Source: Alphaproteobacteria bacterium (GTDB lineage Bacteria; Pseudomonadota; Alphaproteobacteria; Rs-D84). From it: DNA of 64,000 bases. The stretch is taken from NCBI GenBank assembly GCA_017505705.1, contig JAFVOS010000003.1:1-64000 (forward strand). The letters are read 5' to 3'. Both the position numbers and the translations under genes were made by a program. The notes under the pieces were generated by a model. The model worked only from the letters and a program-made list of their open reading frames with translations, did no database searches and was not told where the DNA came from. Shown here piece after piece: positions 16,536 through 21,857 of this stretch; positions within the stretch are counted from its first letter, which is position 1, and every line of letters starts with the position of its first letter.

Positions 16536-19304
16536 TTAGAAATCATATCTGAATTTCAGCAAACCAGTTTGCGATGTATAATCTTCATGCAAATCCAGTT
16601 CATAATTCAAAGATACTTCCAATCCACGATATTCTGCTGTCAAACCGATACCGAATTCACCACCAAAACGGCTCAAGTTTTCGATATCAACATAGTACGC
16701 TGCAGATCCTGGAACAACGATTGTTGCTGTTGAACCTTCGGACACGACGTCATATGTCATTGCCGCATGCAGTTCTGGGCGCAACGCCACAGCCCAATCA
16801 TTTTCAATTTCGAATGCATAGTTTACACCTGTGACCACAGACAAGAAATTTGTATCCATTTCTTTGATTGTGCGTCCCAATGCGTCACGATGTGCATCCT
16901 GGGAAACATGCAAATAGCGCATTCCCGCCATTGGTGTCACACCATTTTCGAAATCATATCCGAACATTGTCTGCATACCGAATGCATCTGCATCATATTC
17001 GTTATCCAGCGCAATACCGAATACATTTGCGGAATCTGCATATTCAGATGTTGTATAATTCAATGTTGCGTTTACGAACCATTCTGCTGGTTTATATTGA
17101 CCATATACGAACACAGAATTGCTTTCTACGCCTGTATCACGTCCTGCGGCATGCATATCTGTATTGTTATATGCGTAACCAACACCGATTGTGTAAACAT
17201 CATCGATGATTGTATCTGCACCCAACGCCAACCCACGTGTATAACCATGGAACTGGCCATTTAACTTAGACTTATTAAACAGTCCTTGTGCCCAGACACC
17301 TGCCCCTGTGACTTCGCCACCGGCACGTCCAGCGGATGCACCACCCACAGACGCCATACGTCCAGATGCAACGGTCAGAACCTGGCCCTGGACCGAAGAA
17401 GCCACCGAATGAGATACTGGTTTTTCTTCTGGGCCGACCTTTGCCAATTCTTTTTCAATAACAGCGATATCACCACTGCTCAAGGCATCTTGTGCAATCA
17501 ATGAAATTTGCTGTAATTTAGCATCTTTTGATGCAACCAGCGAAGATACTGCACTGGCCACCCCTGTTGACATACCTGTTTCAGCAACCAGCTTTTCTGT
17601 CGATTTTGCATTCACAACAACATCTGCACCATTTAAATCAACATCAAAAACAGTTCCTGCCGACACATTTTCAAAATCAGTAAACTTAATACCCGACAAA
17701 ACATCTTTATATTCACCAATTGTAGAAACCAGAATATTCAATGTTGAATTATCAGCACCTGTTACTGTACCATTTACTGCCAACTGGCCATAATTTGAGC
17801 TGTCTGTCAATGTAATATTCATAACAGAATTTTCTGCCAGTTCTAAATTATTTACTTTCAAAATTGTGCCAGCACCGATATTGATTTCCTTGAATTCCTT
17901 CAAAGTTCCAGCAATATCTACAGAAACATCATCCATATTAAATGTTGCGTCGCCTGCAACATGATATGCACGAACATCACCACCGACAAAGATATCACCG
18001 CCACCAAACATATTTAATGTTGTGCGACCTGTACTATCAATATCCGACGTTTTTTCTGGTTCTCTTTCACGACCACCTGCATTTATTGCACCAGCAATTT
18101 TAATCGTACCTGCTGTATTCAGGTTGATTTCTGCACTGTCAATATGAGCACCAGGTCTTTGTGCCCCAGCAATGATCCAACCATCTTTACCAGCAGAAAC
18201 CTCTTGTGCTGTTGCATCGGTATATCCGATAACTGTATCACCCAATACATCAATTTTTACATTACCTGCACTTGGATAAGAACCCGTTGCCAACAATTCT
18301 TCTTTAACAACAGAATCCTTGACCCGGATATTGATGTTTTCTGCCACATCGTACATATTGGCATTCCAATTCTGATAATCACCAGCATTAAAACTAACAC
18401 CACTAATTAAATTAACAGTTGAATTTTCTACATCAATATTAATATCGCCATTAATCCCAGATTTTGTCGTGCCGGTGGCTACAAACTGCTGCCCCAGGAT
18501 TTCGCCAATTTCAGAGTCTTCGACATCAATATTAATATTACCCGTCAAAACAGAATTTGTACCATTTGAACCGCCAACCTGTCCAACAACCTTACCCAAT
18601 GTGGCATTATCAATTTCTATATCGACATCTCCAACCATCGTGGTATTATTTGACATTGCATAAACAGTACCAATTGTTGAATCTTCAATATCAACATCCA
18701 GATTTCCATTTATTTCTTGACCACCATCAATTACAAATATTTCTGCCTTTGATAATGATTTATATCCTTTTAATTCAATATCATTATCTGCATCAGCTAA
18801 ATAAATGTTTGTTACTTTATTCACAACAGAATCCTGAGACAGCGCATTTCCATTTAAAAATACACTCGCTTGATTTGCTCCTGTAGTACTTGCAATTTTA
18901 ACTGTTTCATTGCCATCAAAGTAAAAGTATGCATTCCCATCCAGATTGAATCCATAATCAGAATCATAATTTTTGAAAACAAACTTTGGAACAGCATTTG
19001 GTCGACCAGTAACACCGTACTGCGTCCCAGTAAAAATCCCAGTAAAACCAGTAACATCCCCATTCAATACAACAGTGGTATCATTATACACACCATCAAC
19101 TTTACCTGGCAGCACCTGAAATTTACCTTCACCCGTCACAGCTCCTGTATAAGTTTCTTCTGCACCAGTTGCAACTTTAAAAGTTTTTCCACTTTCAATT
19201 TCAACAGGGGCTGAATAAGTTGCACCCATTGCGGGCATAACCAACAATGCTGGCAAAATACTGCAGACTTTCATCAGGTCCGCAAAATGTTTTGTATTGG
19301 ACAT
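16536..19304 (-). CDS. Autotransporter (type Va) with beta-helical passenger
   Basis: This is a 922-residue protein. The ATG at 19304 is preceded by AAAGGAG and begins a long signal peptide (to about residue 30, MPAMGATYS). Residues about 40-600 are a low-cysteine passenger of short Asp/Asn/Gly/Val-rich repeats (for example INIDVENSTV, INIRVKDSVV), typical of a beta-helix. A helical linker leads to a 12-strand autotransporter barrel over the last 270 residues. The barrel begins GVWAQGLFNKSKLNG and ends in Phe (KFRYDF), the BAM recognition end. It should display the passenger on the cell surface. Adhesin-like, with no enzyme motif seen. Confidence 0.92.
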   Translation of the reverse strand: MSNTKHFADLMKVCSILPALLVMPAMGATYSAPVEIESGKTFKVATGAEETYTGAVTGEGKFQVLPGKVDGVYNDTTVVLNGDVTGFTGIFTGTQYGVTGRPNAVPKFVFKNYDSDYGFNLDGNAYFYFDGNETVKIASTTGANQASVFLNGNALSQDSVVNKVTNIYLADADNDIELKGYKSLSKAEIFVIDGGQEINGNLDVDIEDSTIGTVYAMSNNTTMVGDVDIEIDNATLGKVVGQVGGSNGTNSVLTGNINIDVEDSEIGEILGQQFVATGTTKSGINGDINIDVENSTVNLISGVSFNAGDYQNWNANMYDVAENINIRVKDSVVKEELLATGSYPSAGNVKIDVLGDTVIGYTDATAQEVSAGKDGWIIAGAQRPGAHIDSAEINLNTAGTIKIAGAINAGGREREPEKTSDIDSTGRTTLNMFGGGDIFVGGDVRAYHVAGDATFNMDDVSVDIAGTLKEFKEINIGAGTILKVNNLELAENSVMNITLTDSSNYGQLAVNGTVTGADNSTLNILVSTIGEYKDVLSGIKFTDFENVSAGTVFDVDLNGADVVVNAKSTEKLVAETGMSTGVASAVSSLVASKDAKLQQISLIAQDALSSGDIAVIEKELAKVGPEEKPVSHSVASSVQGQVLTVASGRMASVGGASAGRAGGEVTGAGVWAQGLFNKSKLNGQFHGYTRGLALGADTIIDDVYTIGVGYAYNNTDMHAAGRDTGVESNSVFVYGQYKPAEWFVNATLNYTTSEYADSANVFGIALDNEYDADAFGMQTMFGYDFENGVTPMAGMRYLHVSQDAHRDALGRTIKEMDTNFLSVVTGVNYAFEIENDWAVALRPELHAAMTYDVVSEGSTATIVVPGSAAYYVDIENLSRFGGEFGIGLTAEYRGLEVSLNYELDLHEDYTSQTGLLKFRYDF

Positions 19305-19362
19305 ATTTTCTCCTTTTCTAAGAATTAATTCCAACTGGATATATTATTCGTAGCATATTATT

Positions 19363-19374
19363 TTGAATATTCAA
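19363..19374. promoter_or_regulatory. Perfect 12-bp palindrome upstream of the autotransporter gene
   Basis: TTGAATATTCAA is a perfect inverted repeat 59 bp upstream of the start codon, within AT-rich DNA where the promoter must lie. It could be an operator for a dimeric regulator. The promoter itself could not be assigned. Confidence 0.3.
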
Positions 19375-19409: not shown

Positions 19410-19657
19410 AAAAAAAATATACCGCCAATGGAATTTGGCGGTCGGGTGGGTTAAGAAAATCATAATTTAGAATGACCCCGCCGGTCTTTGGACAACGCCT
19501 GTTGTATAACCGACAGCCCCCCGACCATGCGGGGAAATGACATAATAAACGGCACATCCTGTGCCGCAATATTACGCCTGCGGATTTGATATGCGATTCG
19601 CACATCAACTAAATTATGGACTTTCTTACGGCCCCGAAACCAAATCCCTTTGGGTTC
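19410..19657 (-). ncRNA. Candidate structured non-coding RNA, unassigned family
   Basis: A minus-strand promoter (TTGCGA-17-TACAAT) and a perfect terminator bound about 248 nt with no credible gene. Reading the minus strand, a 10-bp perfect helix pairs CATAATTTAG (19609-19618) with CTAAATTATG (19461-19470). It encloses four hairpins: GATGTGCG/CGCATATC at 19588-19606, GGCACA/TGTGCC at 19551-19565, CCCCG/CGGGG at 19519-19534, and a nested CGGT..ACCG with ACAAC/GTTGT at 19482-19512. Outside it, TCGGG (19633-19637) can pair with CCCGA (19442-19446). The only wobble in the first hairpin is G-U on the minus strand, as expected for RNA from that strand. It does not match tmRNA, 6S, SRP or RNase P consensus features I know. 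Confidence 0.6.
19411..19442 (-). terminator. Terminator of the candidate RNA
   Basis: Minus strand ACCGCCAA-ATTCCA-TTGGCGGT is a perfect 8-bp stem followed by ATATTTTTTT. Confidence 0.85.
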
Positions 19658-19663
19658 ACACAA

Positions 19664-19692
19664 ATTGTAAACCAAAATTATCCGAATCGCAA
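19664..19692 (-). promoter_or_regulatory. Promoter of the candidate RNA
   Basis: Minus strand -35 TTGCGA (19687-19692), 17-bp spacer, -10 TACAAT (19664-19669). Predicted start near 19657. Confidence 0.55.
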
Positions 19693-19719
19693 TATCAAGA
19701 TATTAAAACTACAAAACAA

Positions 19720-19750
19720 AAATCCCCCAACAATGGGGGGAATTTTTTTG
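19720..19750 (-). terminator. Terminator of the 19767-21857 gene
   Basis: TCCCCC AACAAT GGGGGG hairpin with an A-run on the left and a T-run on the right. It separates the exported-protein gene from the candidate RNA. Confidence 0.8.
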
Positions 19751-19766
19751 GACACCACATAGAAAA

Positions 19767-21857
19767 TTATTCGCATGCGCCATATGATTTCGCCACCGGA
19801 TAGTTTTCAACACACACACTGCCCGATGCAATACACGCCGACGGTATTGCCGTCACTGTTGGCGCCCCAGCTGGCTTATAATTAAACTGGGCCGATTTAC
19901 ATAAATTTAAATCTGTATATGCCGCACACATGCTTTTCCATGACGCACAATCGGTCACATGCGCAGTTGGCGATACGGTATCTGGCAATTGCAAATTCCA
20001 TTTGATATAGAAATCACGCAAATTACCAATTGAATACGATTTACCAAACGCAACCTGATCCAGACCATCACCAACACGACAATTAATATTATTGCGTTCA
20101 ACAAATGCAGTGATCGCTGTTGCCAAACCACCAGCCGCCGCACCAGATGCCGCACCAATTGCCGTTGTCTTGCCACGATTCGAATCGATACCCTTTTCAA
20201 ACATATTTGTTATATCATCTGAGAACACACGTCCCAAGCGTGCCAATTCCGTTCCGATTTGTTCACGACTCTGACATGCGTCTGTCCCAGAACAGTAAAT
20301 ACCTGTGCCATCTAATTTTGCCTGGTTAATGGATTTAAAACTGTTGCACTGCTGGCTGCTTGTACCATACAGCTTGTCCATTTCACCCAGCACCGTCTGT
20401 ACACAAACATTTACATCGGCGATATTTCTGTCAACACAAACCTGAAATTCTGGTTTCTGTGCCGCCGCCATTTTAAAGCATTCCTGGGCGACCTGGGCAT
20501 CTGTTGCAGATTCATCTGCATCCATTGCACATATCAGCAACAATTCACGCTTTACATCTGTTGCACTTTTACCACCACAATTATCTGCCGCTGTTTTTAT
20601 CTGGCGATACGTATCATACAACTTAACAATCTCGTTACACTGCGATTCTGAAACCACAGGATTAGTCGCCACAATACGTTCAGATTCAATCATATATTCG
20701 CCCAGAATCCCGATATTTGCATCACCACGCAACTCTTCGGTCAGCATTTCACGATGATTCTTCTTTGAACAATCAAACGTCTGATCACCATGTCCCGCCA
20801 TTGCACCAACCCCGGCACCCAACAGCGTTCCACCACCAACACCAACAACAGCCACTGTGCTGGTATCATTCAACAACGAAAATCCAAACAGCTCTTTATT
20901 ACAGCTGAACGTATCACCGGTTGCTTTCCATACTTCGGCTGGCTGATCATTGCCCAACGCACCGAACAACCAATTATTCTTAATATGTTCGTCTTTGTTA
21001 TATGCAGCAACACGAACAAAGCACGTTGCACTGGCCGCATCCCAACGGGCATAATGACCACGCTGTCCATCAACACCAGGATTTCCATCATTTACCTGAA
21101 CCCCTTGTGGTTTGTTCTTAACCAACACATTCCCCTGCTGGCTGTTATACGCCCCAACCTGTTGATTATATTCAGCCGTCACATTTCCTGAATTAGACAC
21201 AGCCGTAAAAGATGACCCATATGTATTTTTATCCAACAATCTGCATGTATTTTCCGCCTGGTTTGGTGTTAATCCCGTTTTACGCAGGACAAAACTATAA
21301 TATTCTGGCTGAACACGACGTGAATTAAAATCAATCCACACATCTGCAGCGCTGCGATAAACGTTTGCACAATCCTTGCGAACATCGGCGATACATTTGT
21401 CTGTCTGAACCGAACAAATTCCCATACCATTTTCAATTGCATTGCGCAAATCTTCGTTAAACAAATCATTCAATCCACCCGGCAACGCACCTGAATTTAC
21501 ACAGCGCAACACATCATCCATACAGTTTTCAACTGTATAACTTGAATTTTTTACACCACCATCTGGACATTCTGGTGCTGGCTGATCTGGGACAACTGGT
21601 TCATCTGGTTCATCCGGTGTATCTGGGACACTTGGCACATTTGGCATAACAACCGGCACACTGGGGACATTTTGTGATGTATTTCCAACCGCCATCCCTG
21701 GCAATGTCGGCATAGACGGCATACGCACAGTCGCACCATCTGCCACACGACCATATGCACCACGCCCAGTGGCGGCATGCACCGTTCCAACCAGCGCAAA
21801 CAGTCCCAATCCAACAGCGGACAATCCAAACAAACTTTTTAAACTTAGACGACGCAT
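19767..21857 (-). CDS. Large exported cysteine-rich protein with two glycine-zipper segments
   Basis: This is a 696-residue protein; GGGGGG lies 8 nt before the ATG. A signal peptide (to about residue 29) is followed by a Pro/Val/Asp-rich linker (residues 45-96), suited to crossing a periplasmic or wall space. The main body contains about 25 cysteines. Two Gly/Ala segments stand out: residues 335-356 (VAVVGVGGGTLLGAGVGAMAG) and 562-585 (GKTTAIGAASGAAAGGLATAITAF). The second is followed by a CRVGDGLDQVAFGKSYSI motif like the end of the 9134 protein. It lacks the CMD-x-FC module but shares the overall plan of exported, cysteine-rich, zipper-bearing proteins. Function unknown. Confidence 0.87.
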   Translation of the reverse strand: MRRLSLKSLFGLSAVGLGLFALVGTVHAATGRGAYGRVADGATVRMPSMPTLPGMAVGNTSQNVPSVPVVMPNVPSVPDTPDEPDEPVVPDQPAPECPDGGVKNSSYTVENCMDDVLRCVNSGALPGGLNDLFNEDLRNAIENGMGICSVQTDKCIADVRKDCANVYRSAADVWIDFNSRRVQPEYYSFVLRKTGLTPNQAENTCRLLDKNTYGSSFTAVSNSGNVTAEYNQQVGAYNSQQGNVLVKNKPQGVQVNDGNPGVDGQRGHYARWDAASATCFVRVAAYNKDEHIKNNWLFGALGNDQPAEVWKATGDTFSCNKELFGFSLLNDTSTVAVVGVGGGTLLGAGVGAMAGHGDQTFDCSKKNHREMLTEELRGDANIGILGEYMIESERIVATNPVVSESQCNEIVKLYDTYRQIKTAADNCGGKSATDVKRELLLICAMDADESATDAQVAQECFKMAAAQKPEFQVCVDRNIADVNVCVQTVLGEMDKLYGTSSQQCNSFKSINQAKLDGTGIYCSGTDACQSREQIGTELARLGRVFSDDITNMFEKGIDSNRGKTTAIGAASGAAAGGLATAITAFVERNNINCRVGDGLDQVAFGKSYSIGNLRDFYIKWNLQLPDTVSPTAHVTDCASWKSMCAAYTDLNLCKSAQFNYKPAGAPTVTAIPSACIASGSVCVENYPVAKSYGACE

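Follow-up and report, generated by a model that had tools for sequence, protein, structure and literature searches.

What kind of RNA gene occupies the strongly structured element between two protein genes on the minus strand of the 64,000 nt stretch of DNA analysed here (the window), and which genes might it control? According to a preliminary description, an orphan RNA of about 248 nt is delimited by its own promoter and terminator and held together by a long-range helix. We followed the element from its boundaries and fold to its relatives and possible targets.

Boundaries, fold and covariation of the RNA unit

Judged from the fold and an alignment of relatives, the RNA unit covers about 246 nt (19413–19658, minus strand); the claim of a discrete unit stands, with a slight correction of its length. 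It is located between a gene for a protein of 696 aa (19767–21857) and, downstream, an autotransporter gene with a signal peptide (16536–19304, minus strand; ATG at 19304–19302, SD sequence AGGAG at 19314–19310), which matches Pfam PF03797 with E 1.2e-26. The promoter proposed before is indeed present at 19664–19692 on the minus strand, with the -35 box TTGCGA at 19692–19687, a 17 nt spacer and the -10 box TACAAT at 19669–19664. Matches of this type are frequent by chance in the region (6 found, 4.9 expected); almost all of the 39 full-length relatives have a -10 box about 13 nt ahead of the element. From the -10 box and the conserved 5' end GAAUCC, the RNA probably starts near G19657. At the 3' end, the 8 bp terminator stem is confirmed at 19442–19421, as part of an intrinsic terminator (GACCGCCAAAUUCCAUUGGCGGU plus T run; 19411–19443, minus strand) of which 95% of the pairs are kept among the 39 relatives. 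A second, probable promoter (TTGAAT ... GCTACGAAT; 19346–19374, minus strand), similar to a motif at other autotransporter-linked loci, presumably belongs to the autotransporter gene; we take it to be a promoter by its likeness to alphaproteobacterial promoters. Between the RNA promoter and the upstream gene, a strong two-way terminator-like hairpin is located at 19718–19747.

The minimum free energy of the RNA is -114.8 kcal/mol, compared to -78.8 ± 5.0 kcal/mol for shuffled sequences (z -7.26), and none out of 200 shuffles was as low, in line with the earlier view that such an order is unlikely to arise by chance. The helix between 19461–19470 and 19609–19618 is a perfect 10 bp duplex (CAUAAUUUAG:CUAAAUUAUG), exactly as described. 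From the 5' end, the predicted structure consists of a hairpin GAACCC-AAAGGGAUUU-GGUUUC (19636–19657; 88% of cells paired, with two-sided changes), a mimic hairpin GGGGCC-GUAAGAAA-GUCC (19618–19635), the segment AUAAUUUAG (19609–19617), and the local hairpins UUGAUGUGCGAAUCGCAUAUCAA (19586–19608; known from the fold and variable in sequence among relatives) and GCGGCACAGGAUGUGCCGU (19549–19567; 96% of cells paired, with two-sided changes), all on the minus strand. The 3' half (19440–19526) forms a three-way junction resembling sRNA-Xcc1, supported by similarity to Rfam RF02221, covariation and fold, in which the stem Pa (19519–19526 with 19440–19446) encloses Pb (19478–19518) and Pc (19459–19477). 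Two segments of this core, both delimited by covariation and fold, are putatively antisense: loop b of Pc (UCUAAAUU; 19464–19471), which is variable, and strand a (UUUUCUUAAC; 19450–19459) between Pc and Pa. Strand a pairs with the loop of the mimic hairpin (19629–19622), an a1-like site, and loop b with AUAAUUUAG, a b1-like site that makes up most of the 10 bp helix. In predicted folds, the core on its own adopts exactly the three-stem form, while the full RNA prefers the form in which both segments are masked. The 3' strand of Pa (GACC) overlaps with the 5' arm of the terminator.

Covariation was evaluated in the 39 full-length copies from relatives. For the core together with the a1:a helix, 95.3% of the pairs are kept, with 139 two-sided changes versus 34 ± 7 in shuffles and a covariation score of 0.290 versus 0.150 ± 0.006; for the two long-range helices together with the terminator, the corresponding values are 129 versus 37 ± 6 and 0.412 versus 0.139, all of these contrasts with shuffles being inflated by the relatedness of the copies. 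Controls with the pairing partners slid out of register preserve this relatedness, and they destroyed the signal. The pairing of the a1 loop with strand a is kept in 98.5% and shows two-sided changes in four out of seven pairs; in the 10 bp helix this applies to all eight pairs counted. Because this covariation acts at the level of the RNA, a function at the RNA level is demanded. The most variable positions are the antisense segments themselves, which covary with a1 and b1, whereas the loop UAUACAACAGG..AAAG is strongly conserved. From one relative to the next, neither the frame nor the length of the longest open frame stays constant; thus, the frame across the unit is not a conserved protein. 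As originally suggested, the unit is predicted to be a discrete structured RNA that is non-coding and transcribed independently.

Relationship to sRNA-Xcc1 and to the phage C4 RNA

In a search of the window against Rfam only a tRNA reached its cut-off. At the element no match to tmRNA, 6S, SRP or RNase P RNA was obtained up to E 10, which agrees with their absence as noted before. A match below threshold was found to sRNA-Xcc1 (RF02221; 19432–19526, 35.1 bits, E 1.7e-4, curated cut-off 53 bits). Two relatives from the genus exceed this cut-off with 57.8 and 55.5 bits and, reciprocally, a model of the 3' core built from 50 sequences of the genus (R1) finds many RF02221 loci at the right place and over the full-length core with E down to 1.5e-7. 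Since genus loci pass the cut-off and R1 detects the RF02221 loci, the core is, by sequence similarity, homologous to sRNA-Xcc1 without reaching its membership score.

The RNA shares with sRNA-Xcc1 of Xanthomonas campestris a closing stem of the GGUCGGGG type, the inner loop UAUACAA..GAAAG, a second hairpin, a U-rich strand ahead of the closing strand and the placement upstream of a gene, which in Xanthomonas integron cassettes is symE (PMC12444791). It differs in the score of the window copy and in the genes behind the genus copies, which code for secreted proteins. sRNA-Xcc1 was mapped as an 88 nt RNA, and the Rfam model consists of this 88 nt core alone (PMC2996969), so that the 5' domain, which carries the mimic sites, is left out. 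Within a phylum-wide sample, RF02221 is present in 51 out of 397 genomes, and the loci that were read are located just ahead of Bro-N, P22_AR, KilA-N, Rha, SymE and unknown genes; upstream of the modelled part, a hairpin loop and the segment following it are complementary to the core. At a number of these loci (L064–L098, e.g. L064:2394-2580, L086, L093 and L094) RF02221 apparently covers only the 3' half of the whole unit, and a near-copy of the upstream mimic hairpin often lies around the downstream Shine-Dalgarno sequence, again outside the model. If true, sRNA-Xcc1, which is widely annotated with unknown function, would be the core of a larger antisense unit of the C4 type, and such a unit ahead of antirepressor and SymE genes would become a testable account of sRNA-Xcc1.

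Phage P1 silences its antirepressor by means of the antisense RNA C4. This RNA is excised by RNase P, and its a' and b' segments pair at a ribosome-binding site (PMC5320573); c4-a1b1 was listed as a separate motif by Weinberg et al. (PMC2864571). The P1 record annotates a1,b1 – c4 – a2,b2 – icd – ant in this order, and the C4 loci that we read in other genomes have the same upstream and downstream repeated segments. With the C4 RNAs of P1 and P7 (RF01695) our element has in common the succession of a1,b1, a three-stem core with a single strand and a P3 loop, and a gene. The antisense loop belongs to the third stem and the antisense strand precedes the closing strand, with UCUAAAUU and UUUUCUUAAC in the respective places; GUAAGAAA, in the loop, and AUAAUUUAG, which follows it, occupy the positions of a1 and b1, being complementary to the core through the two long-range helices. 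Rather than as a simple scaffold, the enclosing 10 bp helix is better understood as a mimic pairing of the a1/b1 type that involves the antisense strand and loop. Unlike in C4, an intrinsic terminator follows directly behind the core, each copy has a separate promoter, a significant match to sites of the a2/b2 type was not obtained for the window copy, and sequence models do not connect the two in either direction: RF01695 gave no match at the element with E up to 10 and none in this genome, and R1 misses the c4 of P1. Because no C4 model match was found, C4 is taken as the RNA that the unit resembles in its working, and not as the family under which it is filed.

A multi-copy RNA gene linked to secreted-protein genes

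By blastn, 51 out of 118 relative genomes, almost exclusively members of the same genus, were found to contain related copies, often several per genome, many of the matches covering the 3' half only. With R1, nine copies are found in this genome (E 0.1; weakest scores 28.9 bits) and matches in 39 out of 40 sampled genomes of the genus (E 0.001), where the five richest hold 52, 50, 45, 44 and 40 copies within about 1 Mb each; these counts rest on rough E-values, the weakest copies being less certain. The term orphan has to be abandoned in view of nine copies in the genome, a large genus-wide family, a remote relative in sRNA-Xcc1 and the plan of P1 c4. The genus takes in Candidatus Enterousia as well as gut and 'Rickettsiales' MAGs; Enterousia has genomes of about 0.75–1.0 Mb and belongs to the order Rs-D84 (PMC12306168). 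No match to the element was obtained by blastn in collections of phages and plasmids. A comparable multiplication is known from the C4-like Group 1 sRNAs of Acinetobacter baumannii, for which a high copy number in one genome and an adaptation to host targets were described and proposed, respectively (PMC5320573). These share with our RNA the C4-like character and the presence of many copies within a single genome, but are a different family by model, and the copies described here are linked to signal-peptide genes and number up to about 50 per 1 Mb.

Indeed, in two high-copy genomes signal-peptide genes are located downstream of 47 out of 56 copies, compared to 8 out of 46 upstream flanking ORFs (p 8e-12, with signal peptides called by a simple heuristic rule and paralogous copies that are not independent). 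Behind the nine copies of this genome are genes for the autotransporter, two further secreted proteins, a member of the PLD family, two small HTH proteins, a possible methyltransferase fragment and others. As in the wider family, regulator-type genes are part of this mixture. In most copies, the start codon follows the terminator after a few to about 45 nt. A group of autotransporter paralogs (19304–16536 in the window; L005–L010, L014, L021, L028 and L032) have in common both the RNA and a signal peptide (MSNxKHLADLxKVCSxLPAxxxMPAMA). For the autotransporter-linked copies, the rest of the aligned protein and the upstream gene are dissimilar, within flanks of about 1.5 kb only; RNA and signal peptide are possibly exchanged as one module. 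At the loci L013 (on G049:C2), L016 and L017, two elements in opposite orientation and about 0.9 kb apart each lead into their own secreted-protein gene. Two tandem copies about 500 nt apart (L137/L181; G014:C4:154-782) are located ahead of near-identical small proteins of 66 aa.

Taken together, the element is a multi-copy gene for a structured non-coding RNA that is related to sRNA-Xcc1 and has an architecture of the C4 type, and it is linked to secreted-protein genes. It would point to RNA-based regulation in Enterousia, a very genome-reduced gut bacterium, with up to about 50 copies per Mb ahead of genes for surface proteins, an obvious interface with the host.

Possible antisense pairing and alternative explanations

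In 41 loci from the whole phylum, strand a pairs with its own upstream mimic at -15.5 kcal/mol (permuted pairs -11.9 ± 0.4 kcal/mol) and with its own ribosome-binding site at -10.7 kcal/mol (permuted -8.8 ± 0.35 kcal/mol), values not reached in any of 20000 permutations in either case, although such p values are optimistic as related copies are non-independent. Within the genus, where strands a were aligned by model, a first pooled test against the adjacent ribosome-binding sites gave a mean percentile of 0.42 (KS p 0.008). The split into classes was made after this pooled test and hence is exploratory: the match is significant for short-spaced loci of the genome G049 (z 3.4) and for a mixed short-spaced set (z 3.2; both p < 0.001), whereas in the genome G014 it is no better than in permuted pairs (z -0.2), and loci more than 75 nt from the start codon, mostly autotransporters and including the window copy, give z 0.8 (p 0.20). 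For the window copy itself two scores were tried against the adjacent ribosome-binding site and neither was significant. The adjacent autotransporter gene is thus a candidate target by position only, and its probable second promoter would suit a trans-acting RNA whose target mRNA is initiated on its own.

We consider it probable that the element encodes a C4-like antisense RNA with a distant relationship to sRNA-Xcc1, and that it belongs to a large family linked to the secreted-protein genes of the genus. Its independent promoter would yield an RNA of about 245 nt ending at the intrinsic terminator, in which, according to the covariation, the a1/b1 mimic sites cover strand a and loop b. Folding of the 3' core by itself, or its release by a cleavage such as RNase P performs on the C4 of P1, would expose a and b. 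They may then pair with the ribosome-binding site of an mRNA and block translation, a step to which the matching in related copies lends support. As the 3' strand of Pa is common with the terminator, folding of the core may in addition tune read-through into genes directly behind. Judging from gene context, the system seems to have been co-opted in Enterousia from antirepressor or toxin-type genes to surface proteins. Antisense control, unmasking by processing and this co-option are what we infer from the data above.

The overlap of Pa with the terminator leads to a rather unlikely alternative, a cis-acting attenuator or riboswitch-like leader, in which the core would sense a ligand, a protein or a condition and choose between Pa and the terminator, thereby controlling read-through, with the mimic sites merely folding. 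The short distance between terminator and start codon in most copies, the double use of GACC, the conserved loop UAUACAACAGG..AAAG and the regulon-like set of secreted-protein genes would all suit such a leader. However, variable antisense segments which covary with a1/b1 and match ribosome-binding sites phylum-wide are expected from an antisense RNA and not from a ligand pocket, and in the autotransporter class the probable second promoter behind the terminator would bypass attenuation.

It is also quite improbable, in our opinion, that the RNA is a free-standing trans-acting sRNA with targets elsewhere, whose placement reflects duplicated units of leader and gene. Significant matching to adjacent ribosome-binding sites in other classes speaks against it, and a search of this genome with one strict, exact a'+b' pattern, in this respect a weak argument, returned the element, its complement and a single chance-like match of 14 nt. 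Its own promoter and terminator, the missing specific match for the window copy and for G014, and the autotransporters with dissimilar passengers behind a common RNA and signal peptide would nevertheless be compatible with such an sRNA. The recurrence of one RNA and one signal peptide ahead of different passengers, the up to about 50 dispersed copies per roughly 1 Mb and the oppositely oriented pair at positions 161692 and 162711 of G049:C2 might also be explained by a mobile element or recombination module, a dispersed repeat carrying or swapping the expression signals of variable surface genes. We regard this as very improbable, as the RNA-level covariation demands an RNA function and an incidental look at the alignments revealed no transposase, terminal repeats or target-site duplications.

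Returning to the C4-like antisense RNA, we tentatively envisage, as a rather doubtful extension, that C4 and sRNA-Xcc1 are two branches of a single, ancient type of antisense lock, which masks itself and keeps dangerous or foreign genes shut. Enterousia would then hold a third branch, with genome-wide, locus-specific locks on dozens of surface proteins, possibly switching the protein displayed to the host. At least two genomes of the genus have copies directly ahead of PLD-family genes (PF13091; L114, L115 and L162), and L114 and L162 have an unusual strand a, UCGAUCAA.
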